A stretch of DNA of 64,000 nucleotides from Rhodococcus rhodochrous. GTDB taxonomy: Bacteria; Actinomycetota; Actinomycetes; Mycobacteriales; Mycobacteriaceae. Every line of letters starts with the position of its first letter. Within the stretch, counting starts at the first letter, position 1. A program made the translations under genes and the position numbers. The stretch covers positions 558,001-622,000 of the forward strand of contig NZ_LT906450.1 in the NCBI RefSeq assembly GCF_900187265.1, given 5' to 3'. This document shows positions 6,850 through 10,234 of the stretch, in pieces. Below the pieces are notes generated by a model. The model was not told the origin of the DNA. It did no database searches and saw only the letters and a list, made by a program, of their open reading frames with translations.

Positions 6850-7287
6850 ATGTTCCGCACCATGATGAAGTCGAAGATCCACCGCGCCACGGTCACCCAC
6901 GCGGATCTGCACTATGTCGGTTCGGTGACCGTCGACCAGGATCTGATGGACGCCGCGGATCTGCTCGAGGGTGAGCAGGTCTGCATCGTCGACATCGACA
7001 ACGGCGCCCGGCTGGAGACGTACGTCATCGCCGGTGAGCGTGGATCGGGCATCATCGGGATCAACGGTGCCGCAGCACGTCTCGTCAGCCCCGGCGATCT
7101 CGTCATCCTCATCGCCTACGGCGTGATGAACGAGCAGGAGTGCAAGGACTACGACCCGCGCGTGGTGTTCGTCGACGCCGACAACCGTCAGGTCGAGCTC
7201 GGCAACGACCCCGCCCACGCTCCCGAGGGCTCGGGCCTGATCACGCCGCGCATGCTGTCGACCCTCGACTCCCCGTCCCTGGTCTAG
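6850..7287 (+). CDS. panD: Aspartate 1-decarboxylase precursor
   Basis: Produces beta-alanine from aspartate for PanC. This pyruvoyl enzyme self-cleaves between Gly24 and Ser25; the sequence here is YVGSVT with those exact positions. [16 protein letters not shown] and [17 protein letters not shown] are typical family segments. At 145 residues it has a normal length. It ends two bases before the coaX start codon. Confidence 0.97.
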
Positions 7288-7289
7288 AG

Positions 7290-8123
7290 GTGCTCCTCAC
7301 CGTCGACGTCCGCAACACCAACATCGTCCTGGGGGTGTTCGCGGGCAGCGGCTCGCACGCGCGGCTGCTGCGCGACTGGCGCGTCCGTACCGACCCCAGG
7401 ATGACCGCCGACGAGATCGCCTTGCTGTTCCGCGGTCTGCTCGGCGAATCCGCCGAGCAGGTCACCGGGGTGGCGGCCCTGTCGACCGTGCCGTCGGTTC
7501 TGCGCGAGTTGCGTGTCATGCTCGACCGCTACTGGTCGTCGGTGCCGCACGTGGTGGTGGAGCCGGGGGTGCGCACGGGAGTGCCGCTGCTGGTGGACAA
7601 CCCGAAGGAGGTCGGCGCCGACCGTATCGTCAACAGCCTGGCGGCCTACCACTTCTACGGATCTCCGTGCATCGTCGTGGATTTCGGGACGTCCACCTGC
7701 GTCGACGTCGTGTCGGGCAAGGGGGAGTTCCTCGGCGGGTCCATCGCTCCGGGTGTGGAGATCTCGATGGATGCGCTGGCGTCACGGTCGGCGGCACTGC
7801 GGAAGGTCGAATTGCTCCGTCCCCGAGGTGTTCTGGGCAAGAACACTGTCGAGTGCATGCAGTCCGGAGCTGTCTTCGGGTTCGCCGGGATGGTCGACGG
7901 CATCGTGCGGCGGATCTGCGCCGAGGTGCCCGGTTTCGACGGCGACGACGTGGCCGTCATCGGCACCGGCGACAGTGCGCCGCTGATCATGCCGGAGTCG
8001 CGCACCCTCGAGCACCACGAGCCGGATCTGACCCTCGAGGGATTGCGTCTGGTGTACGAGCGGAACCAGGTGAGACGAGCGGCACGCGGAACTGCGGGTT
8101 CCGCTGAGCGCCATTCTGTGTAA
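7290..8123 (+). CDS. coaX: Type III pantothenate kinase
   Basis: Phosphorylates pantothenate, the first committed step to coenzyme A. Motifs of the acetate/sugar kinase superfamily are visible: [16 protein letters not shown] at the N terminus, [13 protein letters not shown] in the middle, [15 protein letters not shown], and [20 protein letters not shown]. The length is 277 residues. GTG at 7290 follows the panD stop almost directly (AGAGGTG), which suggests coupling. It closes the panC-panD-coaX group. Confidence 0.94.
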
Positions 8124-8125
8124 AA

Positions 8126-8176
8126 ATGTTCGTCGTGATCCGTTGCATGAGCACCCAGGAGTGTTGTCGAGGCTGA
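8126..8176 (+). CDS. Cysteine-rich leader peptide (16 residues), candidate attenuator
   Basis: A tiny reading frame starts three bases after the coaX stop and reads MFVVIRCMSTQECCRG. It has three cysteines, two of them adjacent near the end. CATTCT at 8112-8117 lies 8 bases before the ATG and there is no ribosome site, so a leaderless transcript is likely. The two Cys codons (8162-8167) and the stop lie inside the 5' arm of a long hairpin that ends at the ribosome site of the next gene. Polycysteine leaderless short frames of this kind are known cysteine-responsive attenuators in mycobacteria. The match here is by architecture, not by test. Confidence 0.72.
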   Translation: MFVVIRCMSTQECCRG

Positions 8177-8207
8177 CCGCCGCCTCGACCGATAACACAT
8201 TCCTGGG
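8154..8207 (+). promoter_or_regulatory. Long leader hairpin overlapping the Cys codons and downstream ribosome site
   Basis: Three stem blocks pair in order: CCCAGGA (8154-8160) with TCCTGGG (8201-8207), GTGTT (8161-8165) with AACAC (8194-8198), and GTCGAGG (8166-8172) with CCTCGAC (8183-8189). That gives 19 pairs around a 10-base loop with two small bulges. The 3' arm overlaps GGGAG (8205-8209), the ribosome site of the ATG at 8217. A ribosome moving through or stalling on the leader peptide's Cys-Cys codons would open or keep open this stem, which fits translational control of the next gene. Confidence 0.75.
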
Positions 8208-8216
8208 AGTTCTCTC

Positions 8217-8669
8217 ATGCGCGCTGCGCTTCTTTCCATCACTTCTGTTTCCACTGCTGCTCCGGTCGCCTTCCACCGGCTCGCCGTCGAGCGCACGTAC
8301 CCCACCGAGCTGTCCGCAGCGGTCGCCCGCGGCGCCGTCGTCGTCGACATCCGCTCGAACGCCGAACGTGCCGTTCAGGGAACGCTTCCCGGCGCGCTGG
8401 CCATTTCCGCCGATCTCGTCGCCGAGCGACTCGATCCGAGCGGCCCGGGCCGTCTCTCCCTCGCCGTCGACCGCGACGTCGAATGGATCCTCGTCTCGTC
8501 CGACGGAGCGAGCTCGCACGGTGTGGTCGCCGAACTGCACGCGCAGGGCCTGCGCCGGGTCACCCACCTCGTCGGAGGTTACGACGCCATCCGGACGGCC
8601 CGTCTCGTCGGCGCGGTGGCGGAGGCCCAGCACGTCGCTCAGGACGTGGCGCGGGTCACCGCTCACTGA
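8217..8669 (+). CDS. Rhodanese-like protein lacking all cysteines
   Basis: The 150-residue protein has a rhodanese-type layout: the active-site strand-loop region reads [20 protein letters not shown] and is followed by HLVGGYDAI. In true rhodaneses the loop starts with the sulfur-carrying Cys (consensus C-R-x-G-x-R/S); here it is Ser/Asp, and the whole protein contains no cysteine. It is therefore unlikely to be a sulfurtransferase, and a sensor, binding or degenerate role is possible. ATG at 8217 has GGGAG at 8205-8209, which is sequestered in the leader hairpin. A cysteine-free product fits a gene switched on during cysteine shortage. Confidence 0.75.
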
Positions 8670-8722
8670 AAGCGCGCATCTGCAGGATTGACGGCCCCGG
8701 GTGTCCGATAGTCTGGTTACCC

Positions 8723-10234
8723 GTGAGTGATGCCACCGTTCAGCAGCCCGACGACACCCCCGAGCAGATGCGGGTCCGCCGCGAGAAGCGCGAACGGCTC
8801 CTGGCACAGGGTTCGGAGGCCTATCCCGTCGAGATCCCGCGCACCCATACGCTCGCGGAGATCCGCGCCGAGTATCCCGACCTCGAACCCGACACCGCCA
8901 CCGGCACGATCGTGGGCGTCGCCGGTCGCGTGATGTTCTCGCGCAACACCGGCAAGCTGTGCTTCGCGACGCTGCAGGAGGGCGACGGCACCCAGCTGCA
9001 GGTCATGCTCAGCCTCGCCGGCGTCGGCGAGGAGGCGCTCGCCGCCTGGAAGTCCGACGTCGACCTCGGCGACATCGTGTTCGTGCACGGCGAGGTCATC
9101 AGCTCCCGTCGCGGTGAGCTCAGTGTCATGGCCGACTCGTGGACCATGGCGTCCAAGGCGCTGCGTCCGCTGCCGGTCGCGCACAAGGAGATGAACGAAG
9201 AGGCACGGGTGCGTCAGCGCTACGTCGACCTCATCGTGCGTCCCGAAGCACGTCGCAACGCACGCATGCGTGTCGCGGTGGTGCGCGAGCTGCGCAACGC
9301 GCTCGAGCGTCGCGGTTTCCTCGAGGTCGAGACGCCCATGCTGCAGACCCTGCACGGCGGCGCGGCGGCCCGCCCGTTCGTGACGCACTCGAACGCGCTC
9401 GACATCGACCTGTACCTGCGTATCGCGCCGGAGCTGTTCCTCAAGCGCTGCGTGGTCGGCGGTATCGAGAAGGTCTTCGAGATCAACCGCAATTTCCGTA
9501 ACGAGGGTGCCGACTCGACGCACTCCCCGGAATTCTCGATGCTCGAGACGTACGAGGCGTACGGCACCTACGACGATTCGGCGCGGATGATCCGCGAGAT
9601 CATCCAGGAGGTCGCGTTCGGGGTCTTCGGCACCCATGTGGTGACGCTCGCCGACGGTACGGAATACGACTTCGGGGGTGAATGGAAAACTCTCGAAATG
9701 TATCCCTCGCTGTCCGAGGCGATCGGCACGGACGTGACCCCCGACACCACACTCGAGGAATTGACGGCTCTCGCGGATCGCGTCGGCCTGGAGATTCCCG
9801 AGGGCAAGGGCTGGGGTCACGGCAAGCTCGTCGAGGAGCTCTGGGAGCACATGTGCGGCGACCAGCTGCACGAGCCGACCTTCGTGCGTGATTTCCCCGT
9901 GGAGACGTCGCCGTTGACACGAGATCACCGCACTGTGCGCGGGGTCACCGAGAAATGGGATCTGTACGTCCGCGGTTTCGAACTCGCCACGGGTTACTCG
10001 GAACTCGTCGATCCGGTGATCCAGCGCGAGCGTTTCGTCGACCAGGCGCGTCTGGCCTCGGAAGGGGACGACGAGGCAATGGCTCTCGACGAGGATTTCC
10101 TCGCCGCGATGGAACAGGGAATGCCGCCGACCACCGGTACCGGAATGGGAATCGACCGTCTGCTGATGGCACTTACCGGTCTGGGAATCCGCGAAACAAT
10201 CCTGTTCCCGATTGTTCGACCGAACACCCGTTAA
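8723..10234 (+). CDS. lysS: Lysyl-tRNA synthetase (class II)
   Basis: Charges tRNA-Lys. The 503-residue protein has an N-terminal OB-fold anticodon domain (about residues 55-160) and a class II catalytic core: motif 1 around [16 protein letters not shown], motif 2 around [11 protein letters not shown], and motif 3 [15 protein letters not shown]. No C-terminal membrane domain of the LysX type is present, so this is the canonical synthetase. GTG at 8723 lies 8 bases behind TAGTCT (8709-8714) without a ribosome site, suggesting a leaderless start. The position between coaX and lsr2 is conserved. Confidence 0.96.

Follow-up and report, generated by a model that had tools for sequence, protein, structure and literature searches.

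The question raised by this locus is whether the interval between coaX and the rhodanese-like gene carries a switch that responds to cysteine. The window analyzed here, a stretch of 64,000 nucleotides, comes from a genome assembled as one 5.27-Mb contig, and the gene order at the locus was panD, coaX, the leader element, the rhodanese-like gene and the lysS frame. From comparative sequence evidence and predicted folds, the locus is judged with good confidence to be a translational attenuator that would respond to cysteine and would be ON in cysteine shortage; the translation, the cysteine response and the sign are what we infer. The genes and the leader elements were located as follows.

6850-7287: panD, upstream of coaX
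7290..8123, + strand: coaX, type III pantothenate kinase, the upstream neighbour
8119..8127, + strand: extended -10-like element TGTAAAAAT read from the sequence, with TG at 8119-8120 and the hexamer AAAAAT at 8122-8127
8135..8176, + strand: leader frame with GTG start, VIRCMSTQECCRG, stop codon TGA at 8174-8176, present in 18 of 18 genomes of the genus
8144..8146, + strand: extra Cys codon TGC, leader codon 4
8162..8167, + strand: tandem Cys codons TGT TGT, leader codons 10-11, the proposed stall site
8217..8669, + strand: rhodanese-like gene, 150 aa, Pfam PF00581, active-site loop SSDGASS without Cys
8724..10234, + strand: lysS, lysyl-tRNA synthetase, the downstream neighbour, an open frame with a putative name

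The leader frame comprised 13 codons, and its peptide ended in Cys-Cys-Arg-Gly before the stop codon. The -10-like element overlapped the coaX stop codon TAA (8121-8123) and lay 7 nt 5' of GTG 8135, a gap that fits the expectation for a leaderless start. The spacing of 6-7 nt was kept in the relatives of the genus, where 1-nt insertions and deletions shift the frame of ATG 8126 and spare GTG. The first-pass annotation had described a 16-residue frame with a terminal Cys-Cys pair in the 5' strand of a hairpin. The Cys-Cys ending and its place in the 5' strand were recovered, and the 16-codon frame from ATG 8126 was rejected, since this ATG overlaps the -10 element and fails to open the frame in 5 of the 18 genomes of the genus: it has shifted out of frame in L006, L011 and L014 and is absent in L017 and L018. 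The codon at 8135 was GTG in 17 of the 18 and ATG in L008. As read from the sequence, the leader most likely starts at GTG 8135 rather than at ATG 8126, which makes it 13 residues long, and it is probably translated from a leaderless transcript. A sigma-70 consensus scan of 8000-8300 gave no promoter match.

The distribution of the leader was followed through the family. Relatives of the rhodanese-like gene were present in 225 of 251 family genomes; 80 of them were hand-picked to spread over the genera, and 20 further loci were chosen by the core pattern. The homology-fetched set comprised 99 loci (18 of the window's genus, L034 and L052-L131). The exact core GAGTGTTGTCGRGGCTGA occurred in 125 of the 251 genomes and in 14 of 31 genera, as a single copy each, with 0 matches for the reversed-pattern control. 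In the loci examined, each of the 89 exact cores lay at most 350 nt upstream of a match to a cysteine dioxygenase (CDO)-like or rhodanese-like protein. Furthermore, a detector script based on a -10 plus tandem-Cys criterion found a leader in 81 of the 99 homology-fetched loci, in 0 of 99 on the opposite strand and in 6 of 990 shuffles. Conservation of the tandem Cys codons, proposed in the first-pass annotation as a check, was thereby confirmed. The detector missed leaders that are visible by eye (L017, L018, L059, L108, L109, L111, L112, L127 and others), and its matches without the usual flanks (L114, L115 and L126) may be chance. In some loci, such as L107, L116, L117 and L128, neither script nor eye found a leader. 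A covariance model run over the order, with stricter filters that lose weak matches, recovered the element only within the window's family, in 9 of the 249 genomes.

The Cys codons were retained with some flexibility in position. Cys4 was replaced by Arg and Ser6 by Cys in L007, L009 and L012, and all 18 genus leaders kept three Cys. In the 81 leaders detected by the script, which allowed a distance of up to 5 codons, the tandem Cys preceded the stop by 0-3 codons. At the Cys pair, TGT was used in 80 of 81 and 77 of 81 of these leaders; the background in the window, taken from 28 open frames with a minimum length of 250 aa and a GC3 above 0.82, was 12 TGT among 86 Cys codons. The choice of a rare codon at the pair would fit a sensitive stall, but the third bases also sit in helices.

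The leader RNA was predicted to fold back over the start of the rhodanese-like gene in the following structure, termed the lock.

8145..8220, + strand: three-helix lock of 26 pairs, from fold and covariation
8145-8151/8214-8220, + strand: outer helix, 7 pairs, covering the start codon ATG 8217-8219
8154-8164/8197-8207, + strand: middle helix, 11 pairs, covering GGG of the Shine-Dalgarno sequence
8166-8173/8182-8189, + strand: inner helix, 8 pairs; the apical loop 8174-8181 opens with the leader stop codon
8205..8209, + strand: Shine-Dalgarno GGGAG of the rhodanese-like gene, from the sequence

The predicted fold of 8135-8240 had an energy of -46.0 kcal/mol and a z of -5.2, and 0 of 200 shuffles were as good. 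The hairpin of 19 pairs with its 3' strand over the ribosome site, on which the first-pass annotation relied, corresponds to the middle and inner helices (11 + 8 pairs, with GGG of the Shine-Dalgarno sequence paired), and the lock also spans the start codon. Covariation was computed on an alignment of 50 distinct leaders whose Cys-to-start distance did not exceed 60 nt, which omits L140-L153 and nine divergent loci (L110, L113, L114, L115, L120, L123, L126, L129 and L130). In this alignment 89.6% of 1293 cells were paired, compared with 42-51% after sliding the columns by 1-3. Moreover, two-sided changes occurred at 10 of the 26 pairs, and 0 of 500 shuffles reached the observed values, although the shuffles ignore relatedness; the compensatory changes that had been suggested as a check on the stem were thus found. 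The pair at the first base of the start codon (columns 11/90) was UA in 30, UG in 9, CG in 5 and other in 6 leaders, and in five loci where the gene starts with GTG, the pairing base of the leader had changed to match. A search of 8000-8300 found no transcription terminator. An Rfam search of 7500-8800 with E up to 5 gave no relevant family; its sole match, below threshold, was to a microRNA model and lay on the opposite strand at 7923-7980. In L063-L067 and L094-L100, an insertion of about 20-30 nt carried a second copy of inner-helix-like arms (such as TTGAGGC...GGCCTCGA), with which alternative pairings would be possible.

The effect of a ribosome on the lock was computed, with assumed ribosome footprint sizes, as the opening cost of a stretch around the start codon that extends from 13 nt upstream of its first base to 4 nt downstream. 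This measure was adopted after the unpaired probability of the Shine-Dalgarno sequence had given a null result, and both are reported. For the 16 genus loci in the script, the mean predicted cost was 18.1 kcal/mol without a ribosome; it was 7.2 when a ribosome occupied the Cys codons, 7.4 when it stood at the stop and 8.8 when the leader was shuffled. The ribosome on the Cys codons lowered the cost by more than 3 kcal/mol in 16 of 16 loci. The earlier proposal that a stalled ribosome keeps the hairpin open is in agreement with these predicted energies. Over 81 loci of the homology set the corresponding means were 13.9, 7.4, 7.1 and 8.3, with a drop above 3 kcal/mol in 65 loci and no such drop in 16. 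Here the ribosome at the stop was predicted to be as effective in opening the lock as the stalled one. The unpaired probability of the Shine-Dalgarno sequence averaged 0.41 both before and after ribosome placement, and that of the start codon rose from 0.18 to 0.44. In addition, the freed RNA at 8175-8250 of the window folded worse than 199 of 200 shuffles, and the mean z of the freed piece over the 81 loci was only +0.37.

These computed results suggest the following mechanism. Transcription would start at or beside GTG 8135, so that ribosomes could load straight on the leader. With plentiful Cys-tRNA, the ribosome would complete the 13 codons and depart, and the three-helix lock would close and mask the Shine-Dalgarno sequence and the start codon. 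With scarce Cys-tRNA, the ribosome would stall at TGT TGT and cover the 5' side of both the middle and the inner helix, which would block the lock and allow the rhodanese-like gene to be translated. The predicted geometry of the lock favours a switch that is ON under Cys shortage. As in Cys attenuators with leaderless upstream open reading frames (uORFs), a short frame with clustered Cys lies upstream of a sulfur-related gene, and base pairing between the uORF region and the ribosome site downstream of it was predicted in 16 of 16 genus loci and 65 of 81 homology-set loci, and in 0 of 14 of the loci L140-L153. If this picture holds, the uniform two-codon sensor with its covarying lock would be a compact model for leaderless translation in Rhodococcus.

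The gene directly after the leader was in most loci outside the genus another one than inside it. The rhodanese-like protein of the window's genus contained no Cys in 18 of 18 proteins (2728 aa in total); its named relatives (14 loci) were from Rhodococcus gordoniae, R. ruber, R. aetherivorans, R. zopfii, R. phenolicus, R. coprophilus and other Rhodococcus. Over a wider sample of 119 loci, the rhodanese loop had Cys in 74 and lacked it in 41, and 4 were unparsed. A separate CDO-like gene lay upstream of the rhodanese gene in 62 of the 99 homology-fetched loci, that is, in 62 of 81 outside the window's genus. In 5 of the 99 it was fused to the rhodanese (L103, L104 and L120-L122), and in 32, including all 18 of the window's genus, there was no CDO-like gene at that place. 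The rhodanese gene, named in the first-pass annotation as the target, is therefore the first gene in the window's genus, and in most loci outside it the CDO-like gene takes this position. Shrunken CDO-like remnants that keep the C-terminal part alone were seen in L069 and L072, both among the 62; these would represent a halfway stage in the loss of the operon.

The identity of the CDO-like protein bears on the expected sign of the response. The protein of L053 matched Pfam CDO_I with 46.4 bits, and its best solved relatives were 8qfl and kin (53 bits), which are labelled cysteine dioxygenase and which we take to be ergothioneine dioxygenases. In our reading of the alignment, Arg seems present in the L053-type protein where 8qfl has Ser, and this Arg is presumably typical of cysteine-binding CDOs. 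The CDO-like proteins were poor in Cys (4 in 12847 aa of 68 proteins). This poverty was considered as a sign of expression in Cys shortage and was weakened by a control with the CDO paralogue of the genus, in which 5 of 7 usable loci had no Cys and L193 and L194 showed 3 and 2. Of the 11 control loci L189-L192 were dropped for a misread frame, and the 185-residue cut of L193 and L194 may reach upstream of the true start. Because Cys-free paralogues exist, Cys poverty may be a family trait. One other CDO_I gene of the window's genome scored over the cut-off and also had no Cys (L183, G000 5136203-5136595); a scan for a Cys leader at this single paralogue locus detected none. According to PMC7661421, the more highly expressed oxygenases of Gordonia NB4-1Y contain 0.9-1.3% sulfur amino acids, compared with 3.0% in the proteome.

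Known cysteine leaders offer a close comparison. Canestrari and colleagues (2020) reportedly described polycysteine leaderless short ORFs in mycobacteria and proposed that stalling frees a hidden ribosome site. The NCBIfam entries Ms5788A (NF042933), Ms4527A (NF042936) and Ms4533A (NF042937) are presumably mycobacterial ORFs of this polycysteine kind. Relatives of all three were found in the window's genome. An Ms5788A-like leader (L163 2987-3067, - strand, 42.7 bits, cut-off 45) lay 5' of the frame of a tandem-rhodanese gene, at a distance of about 0.6 kb in which other open frames intervened. An Ms4527A-like leader (L180 751-858, + strand, 44.4 bits, cut-off 45) directly preceded a NIR_SIR gene frame. 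An Ms4533A leader (L206, about 1495-1587, - strand) scored 49.3 bits, above its cut-off of 31, and ended TGT TGT CGC TGA, an ending like that of the window leader. Since the same genome holds relatives of three named Cys leaders, the locus adds to a known type; it is a real and widely conserved Cys leader and a further example of an already known switch, whose function we infer.

Like the mycobacterial polycysteine ORFs, the window leader is short, carries Cys codons close to its end and precedes sulfur genes. It differs from them in its 13 codons, in having two to three Cys as a rule and in its site between coaX and lysS, with CDO-like and rhodanese-like targets. A padded query of the window leader, which is a weak test, gave no NCBIfam match, including Ms5788A, Ms4527A, Ms4533A and cis_reg_atten, and seven longer natural relatives gave none at E up to 10. 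PMC13236596 cites the proposed release of a hidden ribosome site by stalling on mycobacterial polycysteine ORFs, and PMC9094748 cites Canestrari 2020 as well. The general scheme of stalling-uORF attenuation in PMC13236596 is similar, with uORF pairing that hides the Shine-Dalgarno sequence and a stalled ribosome that unmasks it; unlike those systems, the window's signal would be Cys-tRNA, its leader is probably leaderless and its start codon is paired too. For Streptomyces lividans, PMC8079986 lists eight leader peptides, for leucine (2), tryptophan (2), alanine, isoleucine, methionine and threonine. These are also short frames before amino-acid genes, several of them leaderless, whereas none of the eight is for cysteine and they are described there as transcription attenuators. 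A literature search, whose scope did not extend to Canestrari 2020, yielded no description of this locus or of any Cys leader, whether from Rhodococcus or upstream of a cysteine dioxygenase. The widely conserved locus joins the cysteine-sensing leaders and ties them to a dioxygenase/rhodanese pair.

Inducing the CDO-like gene in Cys shortage would be strange if the enzyme truly destroys cysteine, and this counts against the proposed mechanism. The puzzle is the main reason why the opposite sign stays as a rival, with the operon ON at high cysteine, for example through free cysteine slowing termination at the leader UGA; this reading is improbable. Tryptophan slows termination in TnaC. High-cysteine induction would suit a cysteine-destroying dioxygenase, given the 62 loci with a separate CDO-like gene and the 5 fusions, and the lock is also predicted to open when a ribosome stands at the stop codon. 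The residues around the Cys pair (E in 73, R in 74 and G in 68 of 81 leaders) also show more uniformity than a mere Cys sensor would require. However, these flanks are not fixed: the divergent loci show ECCRF, ECCRY and ECCRA, and divergent leaders end in RCCRA, KCCLR, MCCC and ECCGA. An arrest peptide, considered on account of the same E, R and G, was made less likely by these divergent leaders. Most of the conserved codons also lie within the paired strand, so RNA pairing accounts for part of the uniformity. Furthermore, one of the other Cys leaders of the genome, the Ms4527A-like one, stands directly before a NIR_SIR gene, which speaks against the opposite sign. The same holds, indirectly, for PMC7661421, where the expression of a cysteine dioxygenase of Gordonia NB4-1Y, whose gene the cited passages do not name, was higher with three organosulfur sources than with sulfate. 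If the operon is ON in Cys shortage, the name cysteine dioxygenase is probably misleading as to substrate or role. A tentative and rather doubtful extension is that a further Cys leader family of the window's bacterial family controls an operon of CDO and rhodanese. Its dioxygenase would leave cysteine intact and, when Cys is short, release the sulfur of a different thiol, for instance ergothioneine; in the window's genus the operon would have shrunk to a cysteine-free pseudo-rhodanese acting as a non-catalytic starvation protein.

The strong covariation and fold would also be expected of an RNA hairpin acting by itself, for example as an mRNA stability or Rho-related element, with the frame incidental. 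This is somewhat less probable still than the opposite sign, because the start codon, the frame, the -10 spacing and the tandem Cys survive insertions and deletions, and because the third Cys moved from codon 4 to codon 6 in three genomes while the count stayed at three. Moreover, the Cys frame persists in 14 loci that have no predicted lock, although this set was itself selected by the core. GC-rich intergenic stretches generally hold short frames and hairpins, but a chance frame and hairpin without function is scarcely credible here, being contradicted by the conservation (18 of 18 in the genus, 125 of 251 in the family), the covariation and the detector controls. The shortage-responsive attenuator is accordingly the reading preferred among these.

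The 14 loci without the lock (L140-L153) belong to genera g11 and g19 plus G178 and were selected by the exact core itself. They carry the core at about position 1000, at the coaX-lysS site, before a rhodanese-like gene with a Cys-less loop. Their fold z averaged -1.2, with 2 of 14 below -2. Ribosome placement freed nothing in them: the opening cost was 5.2 without and 5.5 with the ribosome, and 0 of 14 dropped by more than 3 kcal/mol. As they keep the core without the lock, the core may serve something that the lock leaves unexplained. In L146-L148 a ribosome even raised the opening cost of the start region slightly, so these loci may follow a different logic. In L123 (g11) and L124 (g19), a CDO-rhodanese pair occurred without adjoining coaX or lysS, and a frame ending in CCC was seen at L123.
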